Source: an uncultured Collinsella sp. (GTDB lineage: Bacteria > Actinomycetota > Coriobacteriia > Coriobacteriales > Coriobacteriaceae). From it: a DNA stretch of 48,079 nt. The notes beneath the pieces are model-generated. The model was not told where the DNA came from, did no database searches, and saw only the letters and a program-made list of their open reading frames with translations. This document shows, piece after piece, positions 2 to 15,059 of the stretch; the stretch's first letter is position 1; each line of letters opens with the position of its first letter. The DNA is taken from contig CAUCQW010000020.1 of assembly GCA_958445065.1 (NCBI GenBank), forward strand, positions 1 to 48,079. The letters run 5' to 3'. The translations under genes were made by a program, and so were the position numbers.

Positions 2-736
2 TTGAACGGAAGCGGGAGCTACATCGTCTCTCTGTGCGATGGTAAAAACACCGTCGAAACAATCCTTAATCGGATGTGCGACAAGTTTCCAGACGCCAAT
101 CCGGACATGCTCAAATCTGACTTAGCCTCGGCAATGAGAGGTTTCAGCGTATCGAGACTAATAGGATGGGTCAAAACTCCGACCGAAAATGGCACACCCA
201 TTGCCGATGAGATTTGCGTGGACAATGGGACCCATATACGGCTTGCCCAAGAAAACGATATTCGCCTGATTTGCTCCCTGGCAAGCCAGGCGAGCTCATC
301 AGAACCAGAAAGTCCCACAATTGTCTACGGTTGGCCTCTTTCCGTCGAGCAGTATGAACGACCGCTAGAGGTGCGAAACGGATTGTTCAATCTGAGCAAG
401 GAATTTTTCATTGTATATGAGTCAGGGAGACCAACCGGTCTACTCGGCCTCGCCCCCTCCAGCAATCCCTTACTCAGATACGCAGACATCTGTCTTCTTT
501 TGTGCCCCGCAAGCATCGCCGTTCAATGTATTGCCGCTGCGGCCAGCTTCTATCGTCAAGAATTTTGCGATGTTCCCAATTTTTTCCACCTGAACCTAAC
601 CAGCAAGGAAATTGCATCAAACGAAGGAATTCGAAATCTTATCAATGAGCCAGAATTCACTTGCGCTGGCACTTTTCCAGGTGAGTGCAGCGACGGCGAC
701 TGCATGAATGTATACTGTTTTTCAGAAGTCTGTTAA
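2..736 (+). CDS. PqqD-like (RRE) domain fused to GNAT-like domain, 5' end cut by window
   Basis: The gene runs in from the window edge, so its true start is not visible; the first residues (LNGSGSYIVSLCDGKNTVE) already lie inside the domain. Residues 1-55 match the PqqD/RRE pattern (LN-x-G-x-x-I-x-x-L-x-DG-x-x-T-x-x-x-I, then a helix ending in a hydrophobic stretch), the fold that binds RiPP leader peptides for radical SAM enzymes. Residues 75-244 look like a GNAT acyltransferase: an IRLAQENDI start, a central beta pair (FFIVYESGRPTGLLGLAP) and a C-terminal strand pattern. I see no clear acetyl-CoA P-loop, so activity is uncertain. It ends 8 bases before the radical SAM gene, in operon arrangement. 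I infer leader recognition, with the GNAT part either modifying the product or giving self-protection. Confidence 0.6.
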   Translation: MNGSGSYIVSLCDGKNTVETILNRMCDKFPDANPDMLKSDLASAMRGFSVSRLIGWVKTPTENGTPIADEICVDNGTHIRLAQENDIRLICSLASQASSSEPESPTIVYGWPLSVEQYERPLEVRNGLFNLSKEFFIVYESGRPTGLLGLAPSSNPLLRYADICLLLCPASIAVQCIAAAASFYRQEFCDVPNFFHLNLTSKEIASNEGIRNLINEPEFTCAGTFPGECSDGDCMNVYCFSEVC

Positions 737-744
737 GAGGAACC

Positions 745-1833
745 ATGGGACGAGTTTCGGAAAACAAGTACACCAACGTTCTCAGAGCGCCACATCACGT
801 CGCCCTTGACATAACAAACAAGTGCAACTTGAGATGTCTGCACTGCTATAACAGCAGCGGCGAGAATGAGGTCATGCACGACGAGTTGACCTCAGATGAA
901 CTTTTTGTTTTCGCAAAGGAAATGGCAGACATGTCGCTTTACAGCATGTGTTTCTGTGGAGGAGAAACCTTGTTGCGCAGTAAAGATATCTTGCGCTGCC
1001 TTCCCATATTGCGAGATGGGAATGTTGCAGCGAGCCTGGTAACCAACGGGCTTCTCCTCACGGAATCCCTTCTCCGAGATTTAGAAGATTCCGGACTCAA
1101 AAGCATCCAATTTAGCCTAGACGGCATTGGGTCAGCTCACGATAGGCTGAGGGGACATGAGGGAGCCTTCGAAATCGTCGAAGAAGCAGTTGCCACCGTA
1201 CTCAACCATTCCGATTTGCACCTTGCTATCGCATTTACGCCCACGTCGTTCAACACCGAACAGTTTCCCGATGTCATCTCACTATTAGATGAGATTTTCA
1301 CCAAATCTAACAGGCCGAAGAGGACGCCGGGTGACTTTATCGAACTACGTGTCCAACCCCTCATGGTTTTGGGCCGTGCGCGAAAGAACACATTTATTAG
1401 ACCGGACTATTCCCAATACCGTACGTTGATTCACGCCATTCAAGAGGACGACTTCCTTCGGAAGCACCCGAATGTCCGACCGCAATGGGGCGACCCCGTC
1501 GACCATCTAATTCGCTTCTCTGATAACCGATATCTATTAGATCAGGTTTCAGTGCACGCAAACGGCGACATCGTCGTTTCTCCGTATATCCCGTTAGTGG
1601 TTGGCAACATCAGAAACCACCCTCTTGAGGATTACTGGAACAACGGACTTAGCTCAATTTGGTCCACAAAACTGGTTCAAGACCTCTGTAACCACATGTG
1701 GACCATTGACGACATGGAGCGTATGTCCGACACAATTTGCGATATAGATATGGGAGGTGATCTACACGTTGACCTGATTGATGATACCGCGGATGAACTG
1801 TTGAACTCATCGTTGAAGGAGATGTTGGGTTAA
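745..1833 (+). CDS. Radical SAM peptide-modifying enzyme with degenerate SPASM-like tail
   Basis: A 362-residue protein starting at the ATG at 745, which has an AAGAGG ribosome site just upstream; an earlier in-frame ATG at 685 lies inside the preceding gene. The radical SAM motif CNLRCLHC (CX3CX2C) is at residues 27-34, and CFCGGET is the usual glycine-rich SAM-binding strand. The C-terminal part (VHANGDIVVSPYIPLVVGNI, then a PLEDYWNNGL helix) follows the SPASM layout but lacks the cysteines that normally bind auxiliary iron-sulfur clusters; only two scattered cysteines follow. It sits between an RRE-containing protein and a short peptide whose ATG directly abuts its stop codon. The context suggests that it modifies that peptide. 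As the peptide has no cysteine, thioether chemistry is unlikely; carbon-carbon crosslinking or epimerisation are the alternatives. Confidence 0.85.
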   Translation: MGRVSENKYTNVLRAPHHVALDITNKCNLRCLHCYNSSGENEVMHDELTSDELFVFAKEMADMSLYSMCFCGGETLLRSKDILRCLPILRDGNVAASLVTNGLLLTESLLRDLEDSGLKSIQFSLDGIGSAHDRLRGHEGAFEIVEEAVATVLNHSDLHLAIAFTPTSFNTEQFPDVISLLDEIFTKSNRPKRTPGDFIELRVQPLMVLGRARKNTFIRPDYSQYRTLIHAIQEDDFLRKHPNVRPQWGDPVDHLIRFSDNRYLLDQVSVHANGDIVVSPYIPLVVGNIRNHPLEDYWNNGLSSIWSTKLVQDLCNHMWTIDDMERMSDTICDIDMGGDLHVDLIDDTADELLNSSLKEMLG

Positions 1834-2037
1834 ATGTACGAGAAGCCCGTAGTAGACAACATGAATCCGACCAGAGCATCGACTCTTGGAACGGAAACTT
1901 GGTTCGACATGTATTACATCGTGTGGGGAGCAAATGTGGCGGTCGGAGTCACCGCAGTTGGAGCCTATGAACTGGTCCTCATCACTTTTGCCGCAGCACT
2001 TCCCCTCAGCGAGCAAGGTGGCCAAGACGAGCAATGA
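1834..2037 (+). CDS. Candidate RiPP precursor peptide, cysteine-free
   Basis: A 67-residue peptide whose ATG immediately follows the stop codon of the radical SAM gene; an AAGGAG lies 12 bases upstream (1816-1821). It begins MYEKPVVDNM, like the YEKP-type openings seen in many short peptide precursors. Next comes an aromatic block (WFDMYYIVW, residues about 23-31), a small-residue Val/Ala/Gly/Thr stretch (ANVAVGVTAVGA), a hydrophobic stretch and a polar tail (SEQGGQDEQ). There is no cysteine. Its last bases overlap the next gene (ATGA). It could instead be a small single-pass membrane protein: residues 28-57 are hydrophobic enough. Position between the modifying enzyme and the membrane/export genes favours a precursor, but I recognise no named family. 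Confidence 0.55.
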   Translation: MYEKPVVDNMNPTRASTLGTETWFDMYYIVWGANVAVGVTAVGAYELVLITFAAALPLSEQGGQDEQ

Positions 2038-2375
2038 GTCCTGAAGCGCTAAGATCATCCATTGGCGGCATGGTAGGAGGAATCTGCTTTCTCGTTGTCG
2101 GGGTGTTAATGGTAAAGACCGGCAATCCCGGCCTGATTCACAGTTACCATATCGCTCATATTCCAAGCGAGAAGATTCCTCTTGTTGCCAGATTGGTCGG
2201 ACTCGGAATAGCGTTGACGGGAGCCGGTCTCGTTCTCGCGGGCATCATTGCCTTTGCGTCCCAAATCCCATTATCGGCATCGGCGGCTTTCATTCTGCCG
2301 CTCATCATAATCTTTGCCGGTCTTGGCGTCTCCTTGCTAACGATCGTAGTGTTCACATTTCGACCATGGTCATAA
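2034..2375 (+). CDS. Small three-helix membrane protein (DUF3784-like), possible immunity protein
   Basis: A 113-residue protein overlapping the precursor-like gene by four bases (ATGA), so translation is probably coupled. Three hydrophobic helices are evident (about residues 9-29, 52-76 and 83-108). The connecting segment HIPSEKIPLVARLVGLGIALTGAGLVLAGI resembles the layout of DUF3784/SdpI-type small membrane proteins, where a soluble loop with a Glu-Lys pair precedes the second helix. There is no signal peptide or enzymatic motif. SdpI-like proteins are known as immunity factors against membrane-active peptides, so self-immunity is a reasonable inference; a role in export or leader removal cannot be excluded. 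Confidence 0.5.
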   Translation: MSPEALRSSIGGMVGGICFLVVGVLMVKTGNPGLIHSYHIAHIPSEKIPLVARLVGLGIALTGAGLVLAGIIAFASQIPLSASAAFILPLIIIFAGLGVSLLTIVVFTFRPWS

Positions 2376-2440
2376 TGGATTTCCTATTGCATGAAACTTC
2401 AGGCGCATGCCCAACAAACAATGAAAAAATTTACAGCTTT

Positions 2441-2476
2441 AGTCGGACGGCTGTTTTATTTTTCAGCCGTCCGACT
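2441..2476. terminator. Perfect 13-bp stem hairpin, possible terminator
   Basis: AGTCGGACGGCTG at 2441-2453 pairs perfectly with CAGCCGTCCGACT at 2464-2476 around a T-rich 10-base loop. It follows the small membrane protein gene. No T-run follows the stem on the + strand, so it may be a weak terminator or an mRNA-end stabiliser that lets some transcription continue into the ABC transporter. Confidence 0.5.
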
Positions 2477-2608
2477 GCCGTGCGCGGCCTATTGATCGAA
2501 CATAAAATTCCCGTTTCTATGAGGATCCAGCTCGCAAAGACTCTCTATGGAAGCGCTCGTGCCGATTAGTCGCCGCTTCGTTTCCACCGAACCGCGGTGT
2601 AAGGTGTC

Positions 2609-2632
2609 ATCAGTTGGTATTTCATACCTGAT
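2609..2632. promoter_or_regulatory. Short imperfect inverted repeat upstream of ABC transporter
   Basis: ATCAG..GGTAT / ATACC..TGAT halves are centred about 15 bases upstream of the transporter start. It could be an operator or a leader hairpin; nothing else supports it. Confidence 0.2.
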
Positions 2633-2635
2633 AGA

Positions 2636-4285
2636 TTGGGGCCATTCTTGATTCGGTACGTCTTATCGAAGTTTAGTAAAACAAAGGGTGCTTTCACGTT
2701 CATTGCCATCACGACGATTGGAATCGCCCTTTCCTATGCCGCACCATATGTGAACGGAAAGTTCTTAGATTTCCTTCTTGCCAATCGCAGCGAGAAGGAT
2801 GCTGTGCTTTTTGCGCTCTTCGTAGCTTCAATAGGGGTCTTTTCTGCCTTATTTTCATATTTTGCAGGAACGTTATCTATCCGTATATCCACAAAGCTTT
2901 CTTTTGACCTACTCAGGGAAACCGTCTTGCGCTTTGAGCGAGTTAATTTTCTGACGAACCGAACAACCGACTCAGCCTATACGACGCAAAGGATTTTCAC
3001 TGACTCAGGTGTTGTTTCTTCTTTCGTTCTAACAAACTTTATCAGCGCTCCCCTGTCTGTTGTCGCCATTCCTTTCGTGTTGCTCGTCATATGGTCGGTT
3101 GATCCACTCCTCGCACTATTCTCCATCCTCCTTCTTGTGGCATATCTCTTCGTTATTACCGGATTGCGAAAGCTTCTATATAAAGTCATGTACGAGAAGA
3201 AGGAGGCAGATAGCGCTTTCTATGCCGTAATAGCATCGCAGTTGAATCAGATTCTCAACATTCAGTTAACGTCTTCATACAATAAAAGCGAGCTAGCACT
3301 TGACACCGGATTTGAAAAGTATTTTCCAAAGGTCTTGCACTCGGGAAAGCTCTCATTCTCACTAACATCGATTGACAGCCTTTTTGCTGCCGTGTTTCAA
3401 GCGATAATACTCATCGTATCCGGAGTGCGAATCATCAATGGAACCATGACGATAGGCGAATACACCATCGTCGGTGCATATTTTGCCGTCCAATTTAAAA
3501 CCTTGAAAAACACGATGAACCTGTTCAAGTCCTATCAGGATGCCAAGGCTTCGTGGGACAGGATGAGCGCCATGGGAAAGGTAGGACCGGAACCAGAGCA
3601 AGATCAGACAGGTTTAGTCAAGATTGACACAATAAATCGCATTTCTGTTTCCAAGTTGGATTTTACGGTACCCCTTCCAGACGGATCTCCCCGAAAGGTT
3701 CTTGACGGATTTTCCTTCGATTTCTCCGGCCCTGGAACATACTGCATAACCGGAGAAAATGGAAGAGGAAAAACGTCGCTCCTTTACCTGCTCCTTGGGC
3801 TGTATCCATCGGCAGGCAAAGTAACATACAACGACATGCCGATTGAAAAATGCAATTTGGATTACATACGTTCAGACACGATATCGTGCTGCCCCCAACC
3901 GTGCTTCGCTCCAGATGAGACGGTTCGGGACCTGTTGGATTATTTCAACACCCCATTTTTTACAAAGCACCAGCATATGAATGAGCTACCGTCGTTGACA
4001 ACCAGCATAGAGGGCTTGCTTGAGAAACGTTGTCCTGAACTTTCGGGTGGTGAGCTGCGCCGTGTATACTTGTGGTCGGCAATTTCCCGTAATCCATCAG
4101 TCTTGGTGCTCGATGAGCCTACAACTGGATTGGATGAAACAAGCCGAGCCGAACTCGCTTCGTATGTCAGAAACAACAAATTGAAACAGCTCATTATCAT
4201 TGTTTCACATGATAATGAGCTGGCAAATGCAGCGGAAACGATCGTCAGTCTAGATAACGCGTCACACCGTTGCGCAAATCGATAG
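2636..4285 (+). CDS. ABC exporter, fused membrane and ATPase domains
   Basis: A 549-residue half-transporter. Residues 1-300 form the membrane domain with about six hydrophobic helices. The ATPase domain has Walker A (GENGRGKT, about residue 372), a Q-loop (CCPQPCF), the LSGGE signature (about 468), Walker B with D-loop (VLVLDEPTTGLDE, about 490) and the H-loop (VSHD, about 523). There is no N-terminal C39 peptidase domain, so it cannot itself cut a double-glycine leader. The start is a TTG at 2636 with no good ribosome site; a TTG at 2648 has a GGGG upstream and is equally possible. It lies 260 bases downstream of the radical SAM peptide genes on the same strand and is the likely exporter of their product, probably as a homodimer. 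Confidence 0.85.
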   Translation: MGPFLIRYVLSKFSKTKGAFTFIAITTIGIALSYAAPYVNGKFLDFLLANRSEKDAVLFALFVASIGVFSALFSYFAGTLSIRISTKLSFDLLRETVLRFERVNFLTNRTTDSAYTTQRIFTDSGVVSSFVLTNFISAPLSVVAIPFVLLVIWSVDPLLALFSILLLVAYLFVITGLRKLLYKVMYEKKEADSAFYAVIASQLNQILNIQLTSSYNKSELALDTGFEKYFPKVLHSGKLSFSLTSIDSLFAAVFQAIILIVSGVRIINGTMTIGEYTIVGAYFAVQFKTLKNTMNLFKSYQDAKASWDRMSAMGKVGPEPEQDQTGLVKIDTINRISVSKLDFTVPLPDGSPRKVLDGFSFDFSGPGTYCITGENGRGKTSLLYLLLGLYPSAGKVTYNDMPIEKCNLDYIRSDTISCCPQPCFAPDETVRDLLDYFNTPFFTKHQHMNELPSLTTSIEGLLEKRCPELSGGELRRVYLWSAISRNPSVLVLDEPTTGLDETSRAELASYVRNNKLKQLIIIVSHDNELANAAETIVSLDNASHRCANR

Positions 4286-4321: not shown

Positions 4322-4570
4322 CTATAATGATTGCCCTATACCCATGCGTATCTCAAGGCCTTCGATGATGATCCTTGATACCGTGGTGTTGTGTTCCGCC
4401 GCGTAGGTGCTCATCTCTTGCTTCTGCTCTTCCGTAACCCAAAAGGTGATGCACTCCCCTTTCTTGCGACTTGTCGAATCCCCTTTGTTTCGTGTGTCTT
4501 GATTACCCATGAGGGTCATGCTCGCCTCTCCAACGGGCATGACGCGGCGAGTTGGCTTCTTAATTGCCAC
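4322..4570 (-). CDS. Ribbon-helix-helix DNA-binding protein
   Basis: An 82-residue basic protein read from a GTG at 4570 with an AAGGAG seven bases upstream. The first 40 residues are polar and probably disordered. Residues 41-76 (ECITFWVTEEQKQEMSTYAAEHNTTVSRIIIEGLEIRM) follow the ribbon-helix-helix pattern of one beta strand and two helices found in plasmid mobilisation accessory proteins, MobC-like factors and some antitoxins. It points toward the ABC transporter and has no partner gene next to it, so toxin-antitoxin function is not supported. I regard it as a leftover of the mobile DNA in this block. Confidence 0.5.
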   Translation of the reverse strand: MAIKKPTRRVMPVGEASMTLMGNQDTRNKGDSTSRKKGECITFWVTEEQKQEMSTYAAEHNTTVSRIIIEGLEIRMGIGQSL

Positions 4571-4854: not shown

Positions 4855-4866
4855 TTGGAAGGCTGT

Positions 4867-5905
4867 ATGGACGTCAGGCTGCTTGGAAAGAAAAACGAGG
4901 GCGAGGGCCTTGGGGTCGCTGTTCTCGTTGATTCGGCTTTTGCAGAGTTAAAAGACAAGAGCGATGAGCAGTTGGCGGAGGCCCAGAGATTTTTGATTGA
5001 CTTTATGAAAAAAGTTGCTCGGCTAAAGGGAGTGAGAATTGATCGGCCCCATTTCCTCCGCTCGGAGCTGAGGAGGAAGGGTGTCCATAAAGATGTCGGC
5101 GAGTTTGCCGTGGAAACGACCCCCGTTACCGCCGGAATCGATGTGGGCCTGATCGATAGAATTGCTAGAGAAGTAATTGATTATGAGGCAAAGAAGTCAA
5201 CCGCCTTTTCCTTTGCAGCGGGTCTTCCCGGAGGTGTCGCGATGGTGGGCACCATTCCTGCCGATATTACGTAATACTACGTGCACGCATTCAGGATTAT
5301 GCAGAAACTGGCATACCTGTATGGCTGGCAGACCTTTTTTGAAGAATGTGACGACGTTGATGACGAGACTCTCTACGAAATGGCAGTGTTGCTCGGTGTG
5401 ATGATGGGTGTAGGCAGCGCGAATTCGATGCTAACCGTAATCGCCAAAAACGCCCAAGAGGCGGTCGCGAAAAAGGTCGCTCGCCAGTCGCTAACCAAGA
5501 CCAGTTGGTATCCGATCCTGAAGAAGCTCTTGAGCTTCATGGGTATCAAGATAACAAAGCAGACGGTGGGGGATGCCGCTGGCAAGGTTGTTGTGGGCGT
5601 CGGTGGCGTAATCTCTGGTGCTATCACCTTTATGGGTCTTTCAAAGGGGTCGGCGCGCTTGTGTAGGCAGCTTAAGTGCTTGCCGCAGGCAAACGAGCGG
5701 ATTCCTGGCACTGGGTACTATGAAAAGGATGAGGCCGCGGTTGCCAAGAAGAGGATTGACGTAGCGGAACCCCTCTTTATCGAAAAGTTCGGATTTTACT
5801 CCCATATTCTACGGCTCTATTGTTGAATATGCTGACCGGCTGGAGGAGTCACTGGCGACTGGAGAAGCGAAGCTGGATGCATATAATCCGGACGTTCTTC
5901 TCTGA
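4867..5905 (+). pseudogene. EcsC-family protein, broken by a stop codon and a frameshift
   Basis: The reading frame gives residues resembling EcsC-type proteins (RIAREVIDYEAKKSTAF, AGLPGGVAMVGTIPADIT). It then meets TAA at 5272-5274 and continues in the same frame with YYVHAFRIMQKLAYLYGW, the usual continuation of this family after a Gln. A single C-to-T change (CAA to TAA) explains the stop. Near 5810 the frame ends in LRLYC-stop, while the neighbouring frame reads FYGSIVEYADRLEESL and on to a TGA at 5903, so a second, frameshifting lesion is likely. EcsC-family proteins are membrane-associated with poorly known function. The gene begins right after the IS21 stub (ATG 4867; a TTG at 4855 is also possible), so its own upstream region may have been lost. 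Confidence 0.65.
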
Positions 5906-6086: not shown

Positions 6087-6097
6087 CACTAATGCAA

Positions 6098-6173
6098 TGG
6101 AGCCAGCGACCGGGCTCGAACCGGTGACCCCCGCTTTACGAGAGCGGTGCTCTACCAACTGAGCTACGCTGGC
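6098..6173 (-). tRNA. tRNA-Thr (anticodon CGU)
   Basis: Read on the minus strand, the acceptor stem is GCCAGCG/CGCTGGC, the D loop has AGTTGGTAGA, and the anticodon stem CCGCT/AGCGG holds the loop CTCGTAA, so the anticodon is CGU (reads ACG). The T arm is ACCGG-TTCGAGC-CCGGT and CCA is encoded. The 3' end faces the accessory block at 1-6050, the orientation expected when islands use a tRNA gene as attachment site. I found no second copy of the tRNA 3' end within the window. Confidence 0.95.
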
Positions 6174-6380: not shown

Positions 6381-6863
6381 ATGGCTCAACCCAAGATTCT
6401 TCTTACGCGTATCGATGACCGTTTCATTTACGGGCAAGACGTTGAGCTGTGGAACGAAGCCGTGGGTTCCAACCTTGTCCTAATCGTCAACGATGAGATC
6501 GCGGCGGATTCGCGCCAATGGGCACCAATGAGGGTGGCGGTGCCAGAAGGCGTTTGGACGCGGTTTTTCTCGGTGCAAAGGACTATCGACATCATTCATA
6601 CCGCAACGCCGCGTCAATGGATCTTGATCATAGTGGCCTCACCCGCCGATGCGCTCGCGCTGGTTAAGGGTGGTGTGCCAATAACCAAGATCAGCATTGG
6701 CCATATGCAGGCAGGGGAGGGCAAGCGCTCTGCAACGCCTACCATTGCCGTAGACGATACGGACATCGCCGCCTTCAAAGAGTTGCAAAAGCTCGGCATA
6801 GAGCTAGAAATCCGCTATCTCCCCAGTTCCGCCCCCGACCCCATTGGCAATCTGTTCAACTGA
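6381..6863 (+). CDS. PTS mannose/sorbose-type EIIB-like protein without the phosphorylated His
   Basis: A 160-residue protein starting MAQPKILLTRIDDRFIYGQD. The family (PTS IIB of the mannose/fructose/sorbose group) begins with the same RIDDRLIHGQ segment, in which the His is phosphorylated by EIIA and passes the phosphate to sugar. Here that position (residue 17) is Tyr. The rest keeps the family layout (LVLIVNDEIAAD, VPEGV, ISIGHM, ending in an EIRYLPS strand). An earlier ATG at 6354 would add nine residues, but the family normally starts just before ILLTR. No EIIA, EIIC or EIID gene is adjacent. It may therefore be a regulatory or sugar-phosphate sensing relative rather than a transporter component. 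Confidence 0.75.
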   Translation: MAQPKILLTRIDDRFIYGQDVELWNEAVGSNLVLIVNDEIAADSRQWAPMRVAVPEGVWTRFFSVQRTIDIIHTATPRQWILIIVASPADALALVKGGVPITKISIGHMQAGEGKRSATPTIAVDDTDIAAFKELQKLGIELEIRYLPSSAPDPIGNLFN

Positions 6864-11775: not shown

Positions 11776-12973
11776 CAGCTACTTCGACGGCGCGGTCTCG
11801 AAGACCCTCGCGGACGTCGATATCGACGCAGGTAGGAGTAATCAGCACGAGTTCAACGGCACGCTGCCGCTGAGGTCGCTGTTCGGTGACGACGACATCC
11901 GCGACATCCGCACCACGTTCGCCTACATGTGCGACGAGGCGGAGCCGGAGATGTGCGACGGGACCGTGACTTGGTACGATGCGCGCCGCAAACATCCCAC
12001 GAGAACCGAGTACCGTCTCTACTACAAGGACAACCCCGCCATCAGGCAGGCATCCGCTGGCGACCTCATGGTGGTCGCCAACTCCGATGACCTCGGGCTG
12101 CTCATCATCTTCGCTAAAAAAGGCTCGACCATCGAGTCGCAGCTGAGGTGGCTGTTCGGCTTCGAGGAGCCCGACCGCTCGGGCTATGCCGTATCAAAGG
12201 GCGAGCGCAACCGTATCGGTGCGGTGGCCTCGCGCATCCTCGGCATGATTGGTATCGAGACGCGCGCTCCCTTGAGCGCGGATATCTACTTGGACGATAT
12301 GGTCAAGAGGTTTGGACATACGTTTCCGAAGGGCATCGACTTTACGGAGTACTCCATCTCAACCCTTGAAGGTCTCGACTGGGCGGATGACCCCGATCGA
12401 AGCCTGCTCGCGTGCTACGAGCGCGAGGAATTGCTGTTCAAGGTGTTTGAGCGCCATCTGCTTGAGAGAGACCTTGCGCCCTATTTGAACGGCCAGCTCG
12501 ACGTCGACGGCATTCTGAAGACCACCATGTCGACCTTCCAGCGCAGGAAGTCCCGCGCGGGCACAGCGTTCGAGCACCAGCTTGAGTTCCTGTTCAAGGG
12601 TAGGGGAATCCGATACTCCGCACAGCCCTACACCGAGGGAAAGTCGAAGCCGGACTTCATTTTTCCGTCAATCGAGTGCTACCGGGATGAGGGGTTCCCC
12701 TCCTCGAGCCTTACGATGCTCGGTGCGAAGACGACCATCAAGGAGCGCTGGAGGCAGGTGCTCGAGGAGGCGAACCGCATCGAGCGTAAGCACCTTATCA
12801 CGCTGGAGCCCGCCGTGAGCGTGGACTACACGAACGCCATGCGTGACAGCAAGCTCCAGCTCGTCATCCCCTCCCAGCTTTTCCCCACCTACACGCCTTC
12901 ACAGCAAGAATGGCTCATGGATGTGGGAGGCTTCTGCGAGATGGTCGAGGAGAGGCAACGGGTACTTGACTAG
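11756..12973 (+). CDS. EcoRII-type restriction endonuclease (type IIE)
   Basis: A 405-residue protein, almost exactly the length of EcoRII (404). The N-terminal half corresponds to the effector DNA-binding domain. The C-terminal half has the EcoRII catalytic core: FQRRKSRAGTAFEHQLEFLF, then KPDFIFP with Asp300, and LGAKTTIKERWRQVLEEANR with Lys325, matching the published catalytic Asp299 and Lys324 of EcoRII. HLITLEPAVS and LVIPSQLFPTY follow in the same order as in the family. Its ATG lies inside the end of the methyltransferase gene. EcoRII-type enzymes cut before CCWGG and need a second site as activator. Both key residues are present, so I expect it to be active. Confidence 0.9.
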   Translation: MDYGALSSYFDGAVSKTLADVDIDAGRSNQHEFNGTLPLRSLFGDDDIRDIRTTFAYMCDEAEPEMCDGTVTWYDARRKHPTRTEYRLYYKDNPAIRQASAGDLMVVANSDDLGLLIIFAKKGSTIESQLRWLFGFEEPDRSGYAVSKGERNRIGAVASRILGMIGIETRAPLSADIYLDDMVKRFGHTFPKGIDFTEYSISTLEGLDWADDPDRSLLACYEREELLFKVFERHLLERDLAPYLNGQLDVDGILKTTMSTFQRRKSRAGTAFEHQLEFLFKGRGIRYSAQPYTEGKSKPDFIFPSIECYRDEGFPSSSLTMLGAKTTIKERWRQVLEEANRIERKHLITLEPAVSVDYTNAMRDSKLQLVIPSQLFPTYTPSQQEWLMDVGGFCEMVEERQRVLD

Positions 12974-13011
12974 GCCGGGACAATAAGAGCGTTGAGGCGG
13001 CGCGCAAGCGC

Positions 13012-13317
13012 ATGACCATCCTGAAGGGCTCCGAAAAGATTGTGGCATCGCTCAATCAGTTCGGCGTTGTCCGGCGCGTGAGGCGGGGGCACTACGTGAT
13101 TGCAGAGCCCATCGAACTGAATGACGAGCTTACGCGGTTTTTGGTCTTTGCCGACATGCTGGTAAACCGGTCGAGTTACCGGACGTTCCTGGAACTGCAG
13201 GACGTGGCCGAGTTGTTTCCGTTCGCGTGCCGTGTGAGCAAGGAGGAACTTGTGGCTGACGAGCGGTTCGAGGTGAACAACTTCGGCGGGGAGTTCTCGG
13301 TGGGGGTACGGGAGTAG
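13012..13317 (+). CDS. Hypothetical protein downstream of the restriction gene
   Basis: A 101-residue frame (MTILKGSEKIVASLNQFGVV ... VNNFGGEFSVGVRE) 38 bases after the nuclease stop. It could be read a little further upstream (SVEAARKR) but meets a stop at 12967; there is no good ribosome site at 13012. The composition is mixed and soluble. I do not recognise a family. It may be the tail of a longer gene lost when the neighbouring ABC-3C operon was inserted, since that operon converges on it from the other strand. Confidence 0.4.
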   Translation: MTILKGSEKIVASLNQFGVVRRVRRGHYVIAEPIELNDELTRFLVFADMLVNRSSYRTFLELQDVAELFPFACRVSKEELVADERFEVNNFGGEFSVGVRE

Positions 13318-13334
13318 GAGAGTACAGGTCACTC

Positions 13335-15059
13335 CTACGACGCAACACCTTTGCCACGCGTGAAAAGCATATCGTCAATCGAAAGCTGCAGGATTTGCAG
13401 TTTACCCTGCTCCTCGGCTGGTATCAGCGACGAATCGAGCTTCTCCTTAAGGACTGCGACTATGTACTGGCAGTTGATTGTGCTGGCGCGTGCGATTATG
13501 TCACGCAACACCTTACCCTCGATGTTTTCAAGGACGTCATGCACTATGAAGCGCGGAGTCTTGATGCCCTTTGATTCTGCAAACTGCTGATACGCTAAAT
13601 CAAATGCGGCGATGAGTGACTTGCGTGTGCCCGTGCTGGAGCCAGCGGTATCACGTATTGCAACGGGGAACTTGTTCGACTCTTCATAGTAAACGAGCAG
13701 CGGCGATTCGTTGTTGAACTCCCTGGCAAGCGGAGTGAAGAATGCGTTAAACGCAAGCATCATTGCAGCAAAATCGTTGGATTGCGGCTCGTCGCCATCA
13801 TCAGACGAGCCAAGCGATGCGATTTTTCCCTCAATGCTGGTCTGTTCTACCTCAAAGCTGTTGAGCGTATCTATTACTTCTCGGCATTTGCCGATACTGC
13901 TCGAAAGCTCAACTAGGCGTGCCTGAAGCGACTCGTACTCATCGATGAGGTCTTGCTCCACCAATGACATGAATTGGCTGTTCTGCGATGACAGTTGGCT
14001 GATTTCACGTTGCACAGATGCACGCTCGGCCTTCAGTTTTTCTGCCACACTCGCGAAATAGGCAATCTTGTTGTCGCAGAGCTGGTTGTTGAATGCGACC
14101 ATCTCTTCGAAAGTTGCATTCACCATCGGGATCATCGAACAGACTTCCTCGAAAAACCGTCTGCTCAAATTAACGTCGGCTTGTCTACCGCGCTCTTGCA
14201 TAGCAGTCTGCAGGGCCTCTTCATTTCGTTGCAGCCTGTAGTCTATGTCTGAGAGTTGCAGTGTCAGAGATGCGTATCGGGTGCGTGTAGCCGCGATTTC
14301 ATCGCGGTTGGCCCTGTAGACATCGGCGTCGATGATGCTGTTGAGCTTGCACTGGACTTCTTCATGCTCGGCTTCGAGCCCTGCAAGTATCTGCTGCTGC
14401 TCGCTGACCGTATCGACGTTCTGGACTTTCTTATAGCGTTTGATGGACTCACGCGTCTTGTTCAAGTCCTTGTTGAGGTCGTCACGCTTTTTGTCGAGTG
14501 CCGGATCTGAGATGCCGAACAGAGCGTTGTAGACACTCCGGTAGATGGATGTGCTGCCGCTGGGAACGGTTTTGAGGAAGGAATTATCATCCCCGCCTAC
14601 GGACACGCGGACAAATGAATTGATCAATTGGCGAAACGTGGGCACATTCGCTTCGTTCCCGAAAAGCAAGACATTGAGTCGTTGCTGGTAAGCTTTCTGC
14701 CCCATCTTTTCGCCGTCTATGTAGTACCTTCCATTCGGGAAGAGGTCGATTGTGAGAATCACGTCATCGCCATCGGGAAAATCCGATGTCAGTGTCATGT
14801 CGACGGCGATCTTGTTTGTGACGATGAAATCGCGTAGCTCCTCGGTCACCGTGCCCGTGTCGGCGTCTGTGTAAATGAGCTTCCTGTCCTTGGCGCCCAT
14901 TGCGATATCAATGAGCTTGAGGAAGGTTGTTTTTCCAACGCGATTGTGCGATTCGGAGTCCTCGGTATCGACGATGAGGTTGGCACCCTTGTGGAATAAG
15001 ACCTCGCGAACTATTTCGTCAGTTGTTGTCTTGCGAATTCTAAGCGACTTGATGAACAT
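13335..15059 (-). CDS. ABC-3C system ATPase with DUF2326-like C-terminus (SMC/RecN-like)
   Basis: A 574-residue SMC-like ATPase. Near the N-terminus is RVGKTTFLKLID (Gly42-Lys43-Thr44), a Walker A without the usual first glycine, as in DUF2326 proteins. A long coiled coil covers about residues 185-410. The C-terminal part (NAFFTPLAREFNNESPLLVYYEESN, GTRKSLIAAFDLAYQQFAESKGIKTPRFIVHD, VLENIEGKVLRDII) follows the DUF2326 layout, with FIVHDVLENIE as the Walker B equivalent. GGAGGG precedes the ATG. It is the last gene of a four-gene minus-strand operon and overlaps the gene before it by 20 bases. The gene order (CTD, middle component, ATPase) identifies an ABC-three-component conflict system, predicted to act on invading DNA or as a guarded suicide device; the mechanism is not established. 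Confidence 0.82.
   Translation of the reverse strand: MFIKSLRIRKTTTDEIVREVLFHKGANLIVDTEDSESHNRVGKTTFLKLIDIAMGAKDRKLIYTDADTGTVTEELRDFIVTNKIAVDMTLTSDFPDGDDVILTIDLFPNGRYYIDGEKMGQKAYQQRLNVLLFGNEANVPTFRQLINSFVRVSVGGDDNSFLKTVPSGSTSIYRSVYNALFGISDPALDKKRDDLNKDLNKTRESIKRYKKVQNVDTVSEQQQILAGLEAEHEEVQCKLNSIIDADVYRANRDEIAATRTRYASLTLQLSDIDYRLQRNEEALQTAMQERGRQADVNLSRRFFEEVCSMIPMVNATFEEMVAFNNQLCDNKIAYFASVAEKLKAERASVQREISQLSSQNSQFMSLVEQDLIDEYESLQARLVELSSSIGKCREVIDTLNSFEVEQTSIEGKIASLGSSDDGDEPQSNDFAAMMLAFNAFFTPLAREFNNESPLLVYYEESNKFPVAIRDTAGSSTGTRKSLIAAFDLAYQQFAESKGIKTPRFIVHDVLENIEGKVLRDIIARASTINCQYIVAVLKEKLDSSLIPAEEQGKLQILQLSIDDMLFTRGKGVAS

Follow-up and report, generated by a model that had tools for sequence, protein, structure and literature searches.

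The window considered here is the whole of a 48,079-nucleotide (nt) stretch of DNA from an uncultured Collinsella sp. (contig CAUCQW010000020.1 of assembly GCA_958445065.1), and our subject is the group of genes at its left end, which is a real cluster most likely encoding a radical S-adenosylmethionine (SAM) pathway for a ribosomally synthesised and post-translationally modified peptide (RiPP). All five open reading frames (ORFs) that an original prediction had placed between positions 2 and 4285 were recovered by ORF reading at, or close to, their predicted positions. Together with an inverted repeat they are laid out as follows:

2..736, forward strand: 3' part only of the gene for a PqqD-type RiPP precursor peptide recognition element (RRE) protein (PF05402, 28.5 bits, cut-off 23.4)
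745..1833, forward strand: radical SAM enzyme of 362 amino acids (aa) (PF04055, 63.2 bits; 113-row alignment)
1834..2037, forward strand: precursor peptide of 67 aa (homologues, alignment and shuffle test)
2034..2375, forward strand: membrane protein of 113 aa, weakly DUF3784-like, presumed immunity protein (PF12650, 13.9 bits, cut-off 28.1)
2441..2476, no strand: inverted repeat with perfect 13-bp arms (2441-2453 and 2464-2476) and a 10-nt loop
2636..4285, forward strand: ATP-binding cassette (ABC) exporter (PF00664, 52.7 bits; PF00005, 67.4 bits)

Genes of the operon and their recurrence in other genomes

The ORF at 2-736 is the 3' part of a gene for a 286-aa protein whose start lies outside the window; an intact copy is found at L004:5132-5992, where the ATG stands 8 nt behind AAGGAGG. 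The N-terminal half of the protein is PqqD (35.5 bits when the whole protein is scored). Its other half had been predicted to be a GNAT domain, an assignment that found no support: none of five RRE proteins matched a GNAT Pfam model at E ≤ 10, none of five C-terminal sequences contains the acetyl-CoA loop [QR]xxGx[GA], and an hhalign comparison of the C-terminal half with GNAT, for which the GNAT set was contaminated with wrong-frame ORFs, returned nothing. The AlphaFold model of the protein, with a predicted local distance difference test score (pLDDT) of 36.9, is unusable for judging its fold. The enzyme starts at ATG 745 rather than at GTG 685 of a longer ORF, and enzymes with a rounded 100% identity to it are encoded at L004 (Collinsella sp. 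BG-O-102) and L005 (C. aerofaciens). Its TAA is followed directly by the ATG of the 67-aa peptide, which has no Cys and no Pfam or NCBIfam match; residues 1-20 are its presumed leader and residues 21-58, approximately, its presumed core. The ABC gene, which has an uncertain TTG start, lies 260 nt downstream of the membrane gene, behind the inverted repeat. Its product has transporter and ATPase domains, a Pfam scan reported no peptidase domain in it, and no protease was recognised among the genes of the operon.

The enzyme occurs in nine of 396 genomes of the class, eight of them in one genus, and at every one of its ten loci a precursor gene stands in the same gene run. With the RRE gene alongside, this linkage bears out both the RiPP pathway layout and the conserved co-occurrence of enzyme and peptide that had been anticipated. 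Reading next to the enzyme in other genomes added three further precursor types to that of the window (type 1), four in all. The gap between enzyme and peptide genes measures 0 nt in type 1, 6 nt in type 4, 12 nt in type 2 and about 1.3 kb in type 3, where the RRE gene and one more gene lie in between. The RRE gene stands with enzyme and peptide in all four types, its product scoring above the PqqD cut-off in types 1 and 2 and below it in types 3 and 4. In type 2, known in this respect from one annotated record, the exporter and membrane genes are upstream and oppositely oriented; type 3 has a methyltransferase-like gene (assigned by reading) ahead of the exporter; and in type 4 no exporter stands beside the cluster in the ORF list. 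Other genomes have the same set of enzyme, RRE, peptide and small membrane protein in diverged form, and synonymous changes outnumber non-synonymous ones in the type 2 peptide gene (6, 7 and 9 against 3, 3 and 4 in three distinct comparisons among five genomes), so the association is more than chance. The type 1 peptide gene is silent on selection, since its copies in the window and three genomes are all identical.

Some copies are damaged. The enzyme of genome G031 is truncated, and G006 and G024 have broken RRE genes. At L016 in G024, a 420-aa transposase-like ORF, which we take to be IS30-like, splits the RRE gene, which stands immediately ahead of the type 1 enzyme gene, right before its KNTVETIL stretch. 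Genome G004 has two clusters, one of type 1 and one of type 2 (on contigs C14 and C11).

Precursor peptides and the enzyme family

How closely related are the four types of precursor? The window's peptide has 24 direct homologues, several of them frameshifted, and a profile built from seven peptides listed 82 of 402 candidates, two of the 82 at E > 0.1. Types 1 and 4 share the core pattern V-x-G-x-N-x3-GVTA-x2-A, with an alignment score reached by none of 1000 shuffles, and the score between types 3 and 4 was reached by 8 of 1000 shuffles for the cores and 29 of 1000 at full length. Types 1 and 3 align at chance level (245 and 390 of 1000 shuffles; 90 and 133 when P0020 represents type 1), the type 2 core does not align with types 1 and 4 (919 and 339 of 1000), and type 2 is only weakly alike to type 3 (108 of 1000 for the core, 46 of 1000 at full length). 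The leader links type 2 to type 1, the full-length score being reached by 6 of 1000 shuffles for P0020 and 62 of 1000 for the window's peptide, and its common pattern is roughly [YF]-x-x-P-x-[VI].

Inside each type the core is conserved, as judged from 27 peptides picked as intact (8, 9 and 10 of types 1 to 3), so that the variable core once hoped for did not materialise. Val, Ala, Gly, Thr, Ile and Leu make up 60-73% of the core. The aromatic block previously taken for the modified core had to be abandoned in view of two relatives: MYYIVW of the window is replaced by MCNAVL in P0020, which is 71% identical, and by MYNVLW in P0018, and it is instead V-x-G-x-N-x3-GVTA that type 1 and the distant type 4 have in common. 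A single Cys is present in only some relatives (P0020, P0168, P0174 and P0204), and no Cys column is conserved. Among the metagenomic sequences P0011-P0028 and P0154-P0200, many precursors are frameshifted or carry small in-frame deletions in the core, at differing points. These changes may have arisen because a costly product was given up, or through clustering and assembly; the 90% clustering, which treats short and long proteins differently, keeps their frameshift rate from being weighed against that of other genes.

The enzyme family comprises 274 proteins at E ≤ 1e-30, ranging from Collinsella to Lachnospiraceae and Paenibacillus. Apart from its radical SAM domain the window's enzyme has a SPASM match of 17.5 bits, under the cut-off of 21.5. 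In alignment A4, whose 113 rows are this enzyme and 112 of the best 120 of the 274 homologues (P0030, P0031, P0048, P0073, P0079, P0084, P0095 and P0107 being left out), only five Cys are invariant in all 113 rows: C27, C31 and C34, which form the CX3CX2C motif at C27-C34, and C69 and C71, both within a CxCGGE signature at C69-E74. No conserved ligands of an auxiliary cluster were found in this alignment, the best Cys column past residue 200 being filled in 33 of 113 rows, and 15 of the 113 have no Cys at all beyond that residue. Judged from its Cys pattern, the enzyme probably holds a single [4Fe-4S] cluster. The predicted structure (pLDDT 93.3) finds its best PDB matches in SkfB, SuiB, viperins, AnSME, ChlB, EpeE and other radical SAM enzymes. 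Since these are several different enzymes, the fold names no reaction, and we rejected it as a basis for naming the chemistry. The positions of C69 and C71 are occupied by T/T in SkfB, R/T in MoaA and BlsE, and D/F in 5wgg, a difference that we count in favour of an epimerase. There is no PqqD match within the radical SAM enzyme itself.

Among the best 25 of 80 NCBIfam matches no model names the enzyme family, and none of the PqqE and MftC models in NCBIfam reaches its cut-off on the window's enzyme. Literature searches, seen as titles and abstract openings, yielded no description of the family, and a search joining radical SAM, Collinsella, precursor peptide and RiPP returned no paper. The 31 pattern matches in IMG/VR include no relative, a phage collection gave no match, and a plasmid collection gave only a Collinsella record at E ≤ 1e-20 and 1e-30; at E ≤ 1e-6 it gave 260 records, and the regions of two Bacillota rows among the matches listed held no like cluster. 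Two metagenomic proteins, P0095 and P0107, begin as an exporter resembling P0005 and run on into part of the enzyme. They are probably assembly joins, and hint that the exporter adjoins the enzyme in unseen genomes too.

Proposed pathway and its rivals

We consider it rather probable that these genes form a RiPP pathway carried by a mobile element, in which an RRE-guided enzyme modifies an aliphatic peptide that is then exported by the ABC protein, with a DUF3784-like protein providing immunity. The PqqD-type RRE protein would bind the N-terminal leader of the precursor and present the leader-bearing peptide to the radical SAM enzyme. The enzyme, with its presumed single cluster, would abstract hydrogen from aliphatic residues of the C-terminal core, and the outcome would most likely be L-to-D epimerisation, with the invariant C69 or C71 as the hydrogen donor. 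The hydrophobic product would leave the cell through the ABC protein and would probably act on the membranes of competing bacteria, and the coupled DUF3784-like protein would protect the producer.

The membrane protein is presumed to confer immunity because in types 1 and 4 its gene begins within the end of the peptide gene, with a 4-nt overlap at the stop, and because it is whole at two of three loci that lack the enzyme. Its relation to PF12650 (DUF3784) remains below the cut-off throughout, with 24.5 bits in type 2, 23.5 bits in type 3 and no match in type 4, and a literature search on DUF3784 returned no paper. The enzyme-less loci themselves weigh against the pathway as proposed. The original prediction had named peptides without the enzyme as an observation that would speak against it, and such peptides, each with a membrane gene beside it, do occur at three of 13 peptide loci (G084, G029 and G105); two of the three are visibly broken. 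In G084 an in-frame stop separates leader from core and the exporter is in two fragments, with the membrane gene whole; in G029 the N-terminal part of the peptide is lost and the membrane gene truncated. In G105 the peptide ends at a stop just past the shared stretch, next to a whole membrane gene, and it is possibly a complete short peptide with that stop as its natural end. An enzyme profile found no match in G105 and only weak ones in G084 and G029 (best E 1.5e-28 and 5.8e-18). From their sequences we read the enzyme-less loci as decay, of which G105 is no proof, and the membrane gene that persists whole at two of them and truncated at the third is suggestive of an orphan immunity gene.

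Could the peptide simply be a single-pass membrane peptide that partners the small membrane protein, with the radical SAM enzyme acting elsewhere and no RiPP made at all? The loci just described, where peptide and membrane gene stand without the enzyme, would be expected under such a partnership, and the best 19-residue hydropathy of 1.67-2.02, in the range of membrane helices in five of five tested peptides, on which the proposed membrane action of the product rests, suits it as well. Yet the RRE gene stands with enzyme and peptide in every type, the leader pattern recurs between types 1 and 2, and two of the enzyme-less loci are broken. A match of the peptide to a plain membrane-protein family, which would also have spoken for this explanation, was sought and no clear one was found. 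We regard it as quite improbable.

If the peptide is modified, what is done to it? L-to-D epimerisation is our first choice, though a tentative one. According to an extract of PMC8326336, the proteusin epimerases (PoyD, OspD and AvpD) have the radical SAM cluster only and need one extra, strictly conserved Cys, a combination that the Cys pattern of the present enzyme would match; this likeness, a peptide that offers no thiol, and a core rich in Val, Ala and Gly are the reasons for the choice. Three features weigh against it: the RRE is separate from the enzyme, the leader is short, and the fold is nearer to SkfB. In proteusin epimerases, as the same extract has it, the RRE is the C-terminal part of the enzyme, and proteusins carry a long nitrile-hydratase-like leader, whereas here a separate PqqD gene accompanies a 67-aa precursor with a presumed leader of some 20 residues. 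The epipeptide epimerase EpeE/YydG is described there as having two [4Fe-4S] clusters, in contrast to the absence of conserved further ligands here, and its best profile match covers only profile residues 14-109, approximately. The core of polytheonamide, like the present one, is rich in Val, Ala, Gly and Asn. Thioether formation of the sactipeptide or ranthipeptide kind, already discounted in the original prediction, indeed appears unlikely: SkfB and other SPASM/twitch sactisynthases join a Cys sulphur to a backbone carbon, whereas here neither a conserved precursor Cys nor auxiliary ligands in the enzyme were found.

Nearly as likely as epimerisation is some other change to aliphatic residues, be it the conversion of Val or Ile into a cyclopropane, desaturation, or a C-C crosslink between aliphatic positions. 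TvgB, the enzyme of poly-cyclopropylglycine, resembles the proposed activity in being a radical SAM enzyme that acts on an aliphatic core, but PMC9062424 reports two or more [4Fe-4S] clusters in it and a substrate built of TVGG repeats; the present enzymes have no conserved ligands for a second cluster, and the peptides no short repeated motif of that kind. The crosslinking of aromatic or acidic residues into a cyclophane-like or PQQ-like product, as first suggested for this locus, seems improbable. All four types do show an aromatic residue with D or E next to it near the start of the core (WFD/WFE, VYD), and MftC, which acts on a C-terminal Val-Tyr, exemplifies a radical SAM enzyme whose PqqD-like RRE is a protein of its own (MftB). 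PqqE and PqqD form the same kind of pairing in the extract of PMC8326336, where, however, the crosslinking enzymes reviewed have auxiliary clusters, which by ligand count are absent here. Moreover, the MYYIVW block is not conserved, and neither the Glu-Tyr motif of PqqE nor the Val-Tyr motif of MftC has a counterpart in these peptides. A splicease-like enzyme that excises a tyramine unit is barely credible. The core rule of spliceotides is X-Y-G, the cores of type 3 peptides retain an NYG, and the enzyme matches TIGR04103, to which PlpX presumably belongs, at 67.5 bits; the cut-off of that model is 725 bits, many other radical SAM models score higher, and the cores of types 1, 2 and 4 that were read next to the enzyme, like the window's peptide, contain no YG. 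With NYG confined to type 3, splicing was set aside.

A broader proposal, which we hold to be doubtful, is that epimerisation here would define a new class of gut RiPPs, in which single-cluster CxCGGE enzymes and a trans-acting RRE would convert short peptides of Val, Ala, Gly and Asn into membrane-active helices that are D-configured in part. The product would be a smaller analogue of polytheonamide, passed between species together with its immunity gene on an integrative element. If true, a peptide-modifying enzyme that needs only one cluster and combines a CxCGGE site with a separate RRE would offer a compact setting in which to ask how aliphatic residues are chosen and altered. The enzyme family is large and has no name, and the cluster is a lead to new peptide chemistry. 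Common human gut bacteria harbour the cluster on a mobile element, so competition among strains may be influenced by its product.

The mobile element and neighbouring genes

Three features to the right of the operon belong to the element or its integration site:

4322..4570, reverse strand: small NikA-like protein of the mobile element (PF21983, 17.6 bits, below the cut-off of 27)
6093..6142, no strand: right attachment repeat, spanning the 3' part of the tRNA-Thr gene (second copies in G026 and G024)
6098..6173, reverse strand: tRNA-Thr (cgt), the integration site

A second copy of the 50-bp repeat is found in G026 at a distance of 15.9 kb (49 of 50 positions identical) and in G024 at 16.8 kb (all 50 identical), and in G001, G003 and G008 homology to the window's flank starts exactly at 6093. 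In G026 the repeats enclose a tyrosine integrase gene (68.7 bits) and three mobilisation genes, whose products are NikA/MobC-like, relaxase-like (30.7 bits, cut-off 24.6) and a coupling protein; the operon comes next. The window holds the right end only. From its gene content and repeats, the element is apparently integrative and mobilisable. The window is 98.8, 99.7 and 99.1% identical to G026, G024 and G004, which represent three other species, up to positions 6844, 6296 and 6296, respectively, and 92.4, 91.2 and 93.8% identical beyond. We take this to mean that an integrated element spread recently and that DNA flanking it was perhaps exchanged later. Two observations sit uneasily with a simple insertion at the repeats: the right-hand step in identity falls 0.15-0.7 kb past the repeat rather than on it, and between contig C43 of G026 and G024 an identity of 98.3% continues for about 10.8 kb to the left of the left repeat before dropping to 94.3%. 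The latter stretch may be a larger or a neighbouring shared segment.

Two ORFs of the window (4855-5274 and 5281-5826) together represent one 349-aa gene that is whole at L005:10113-11162; no Pfam family scores above cut-off on it. At L018, some 2.6 kb past the type 2 enzyme, and likewise at L019 and L021, lies a gene whose 246-aa product contains a run of Asn-Ala repeats, VLNANAVTNANIILNANGMANANANAQNNAN. A second, different radical SAM-like gene follows it directly. In L035, where the two genes occupy 12618-14419, the first is annotated as encoding a DUF5969 family protein. The pair looks like another modified-peptide system. The L035 record (NZ_OY725717.1) is a 900-kb 'plasmid 6' of C. aerofaciens that carries rplS, ppdK and glyS, and because of these genes it is probably chromosomal.

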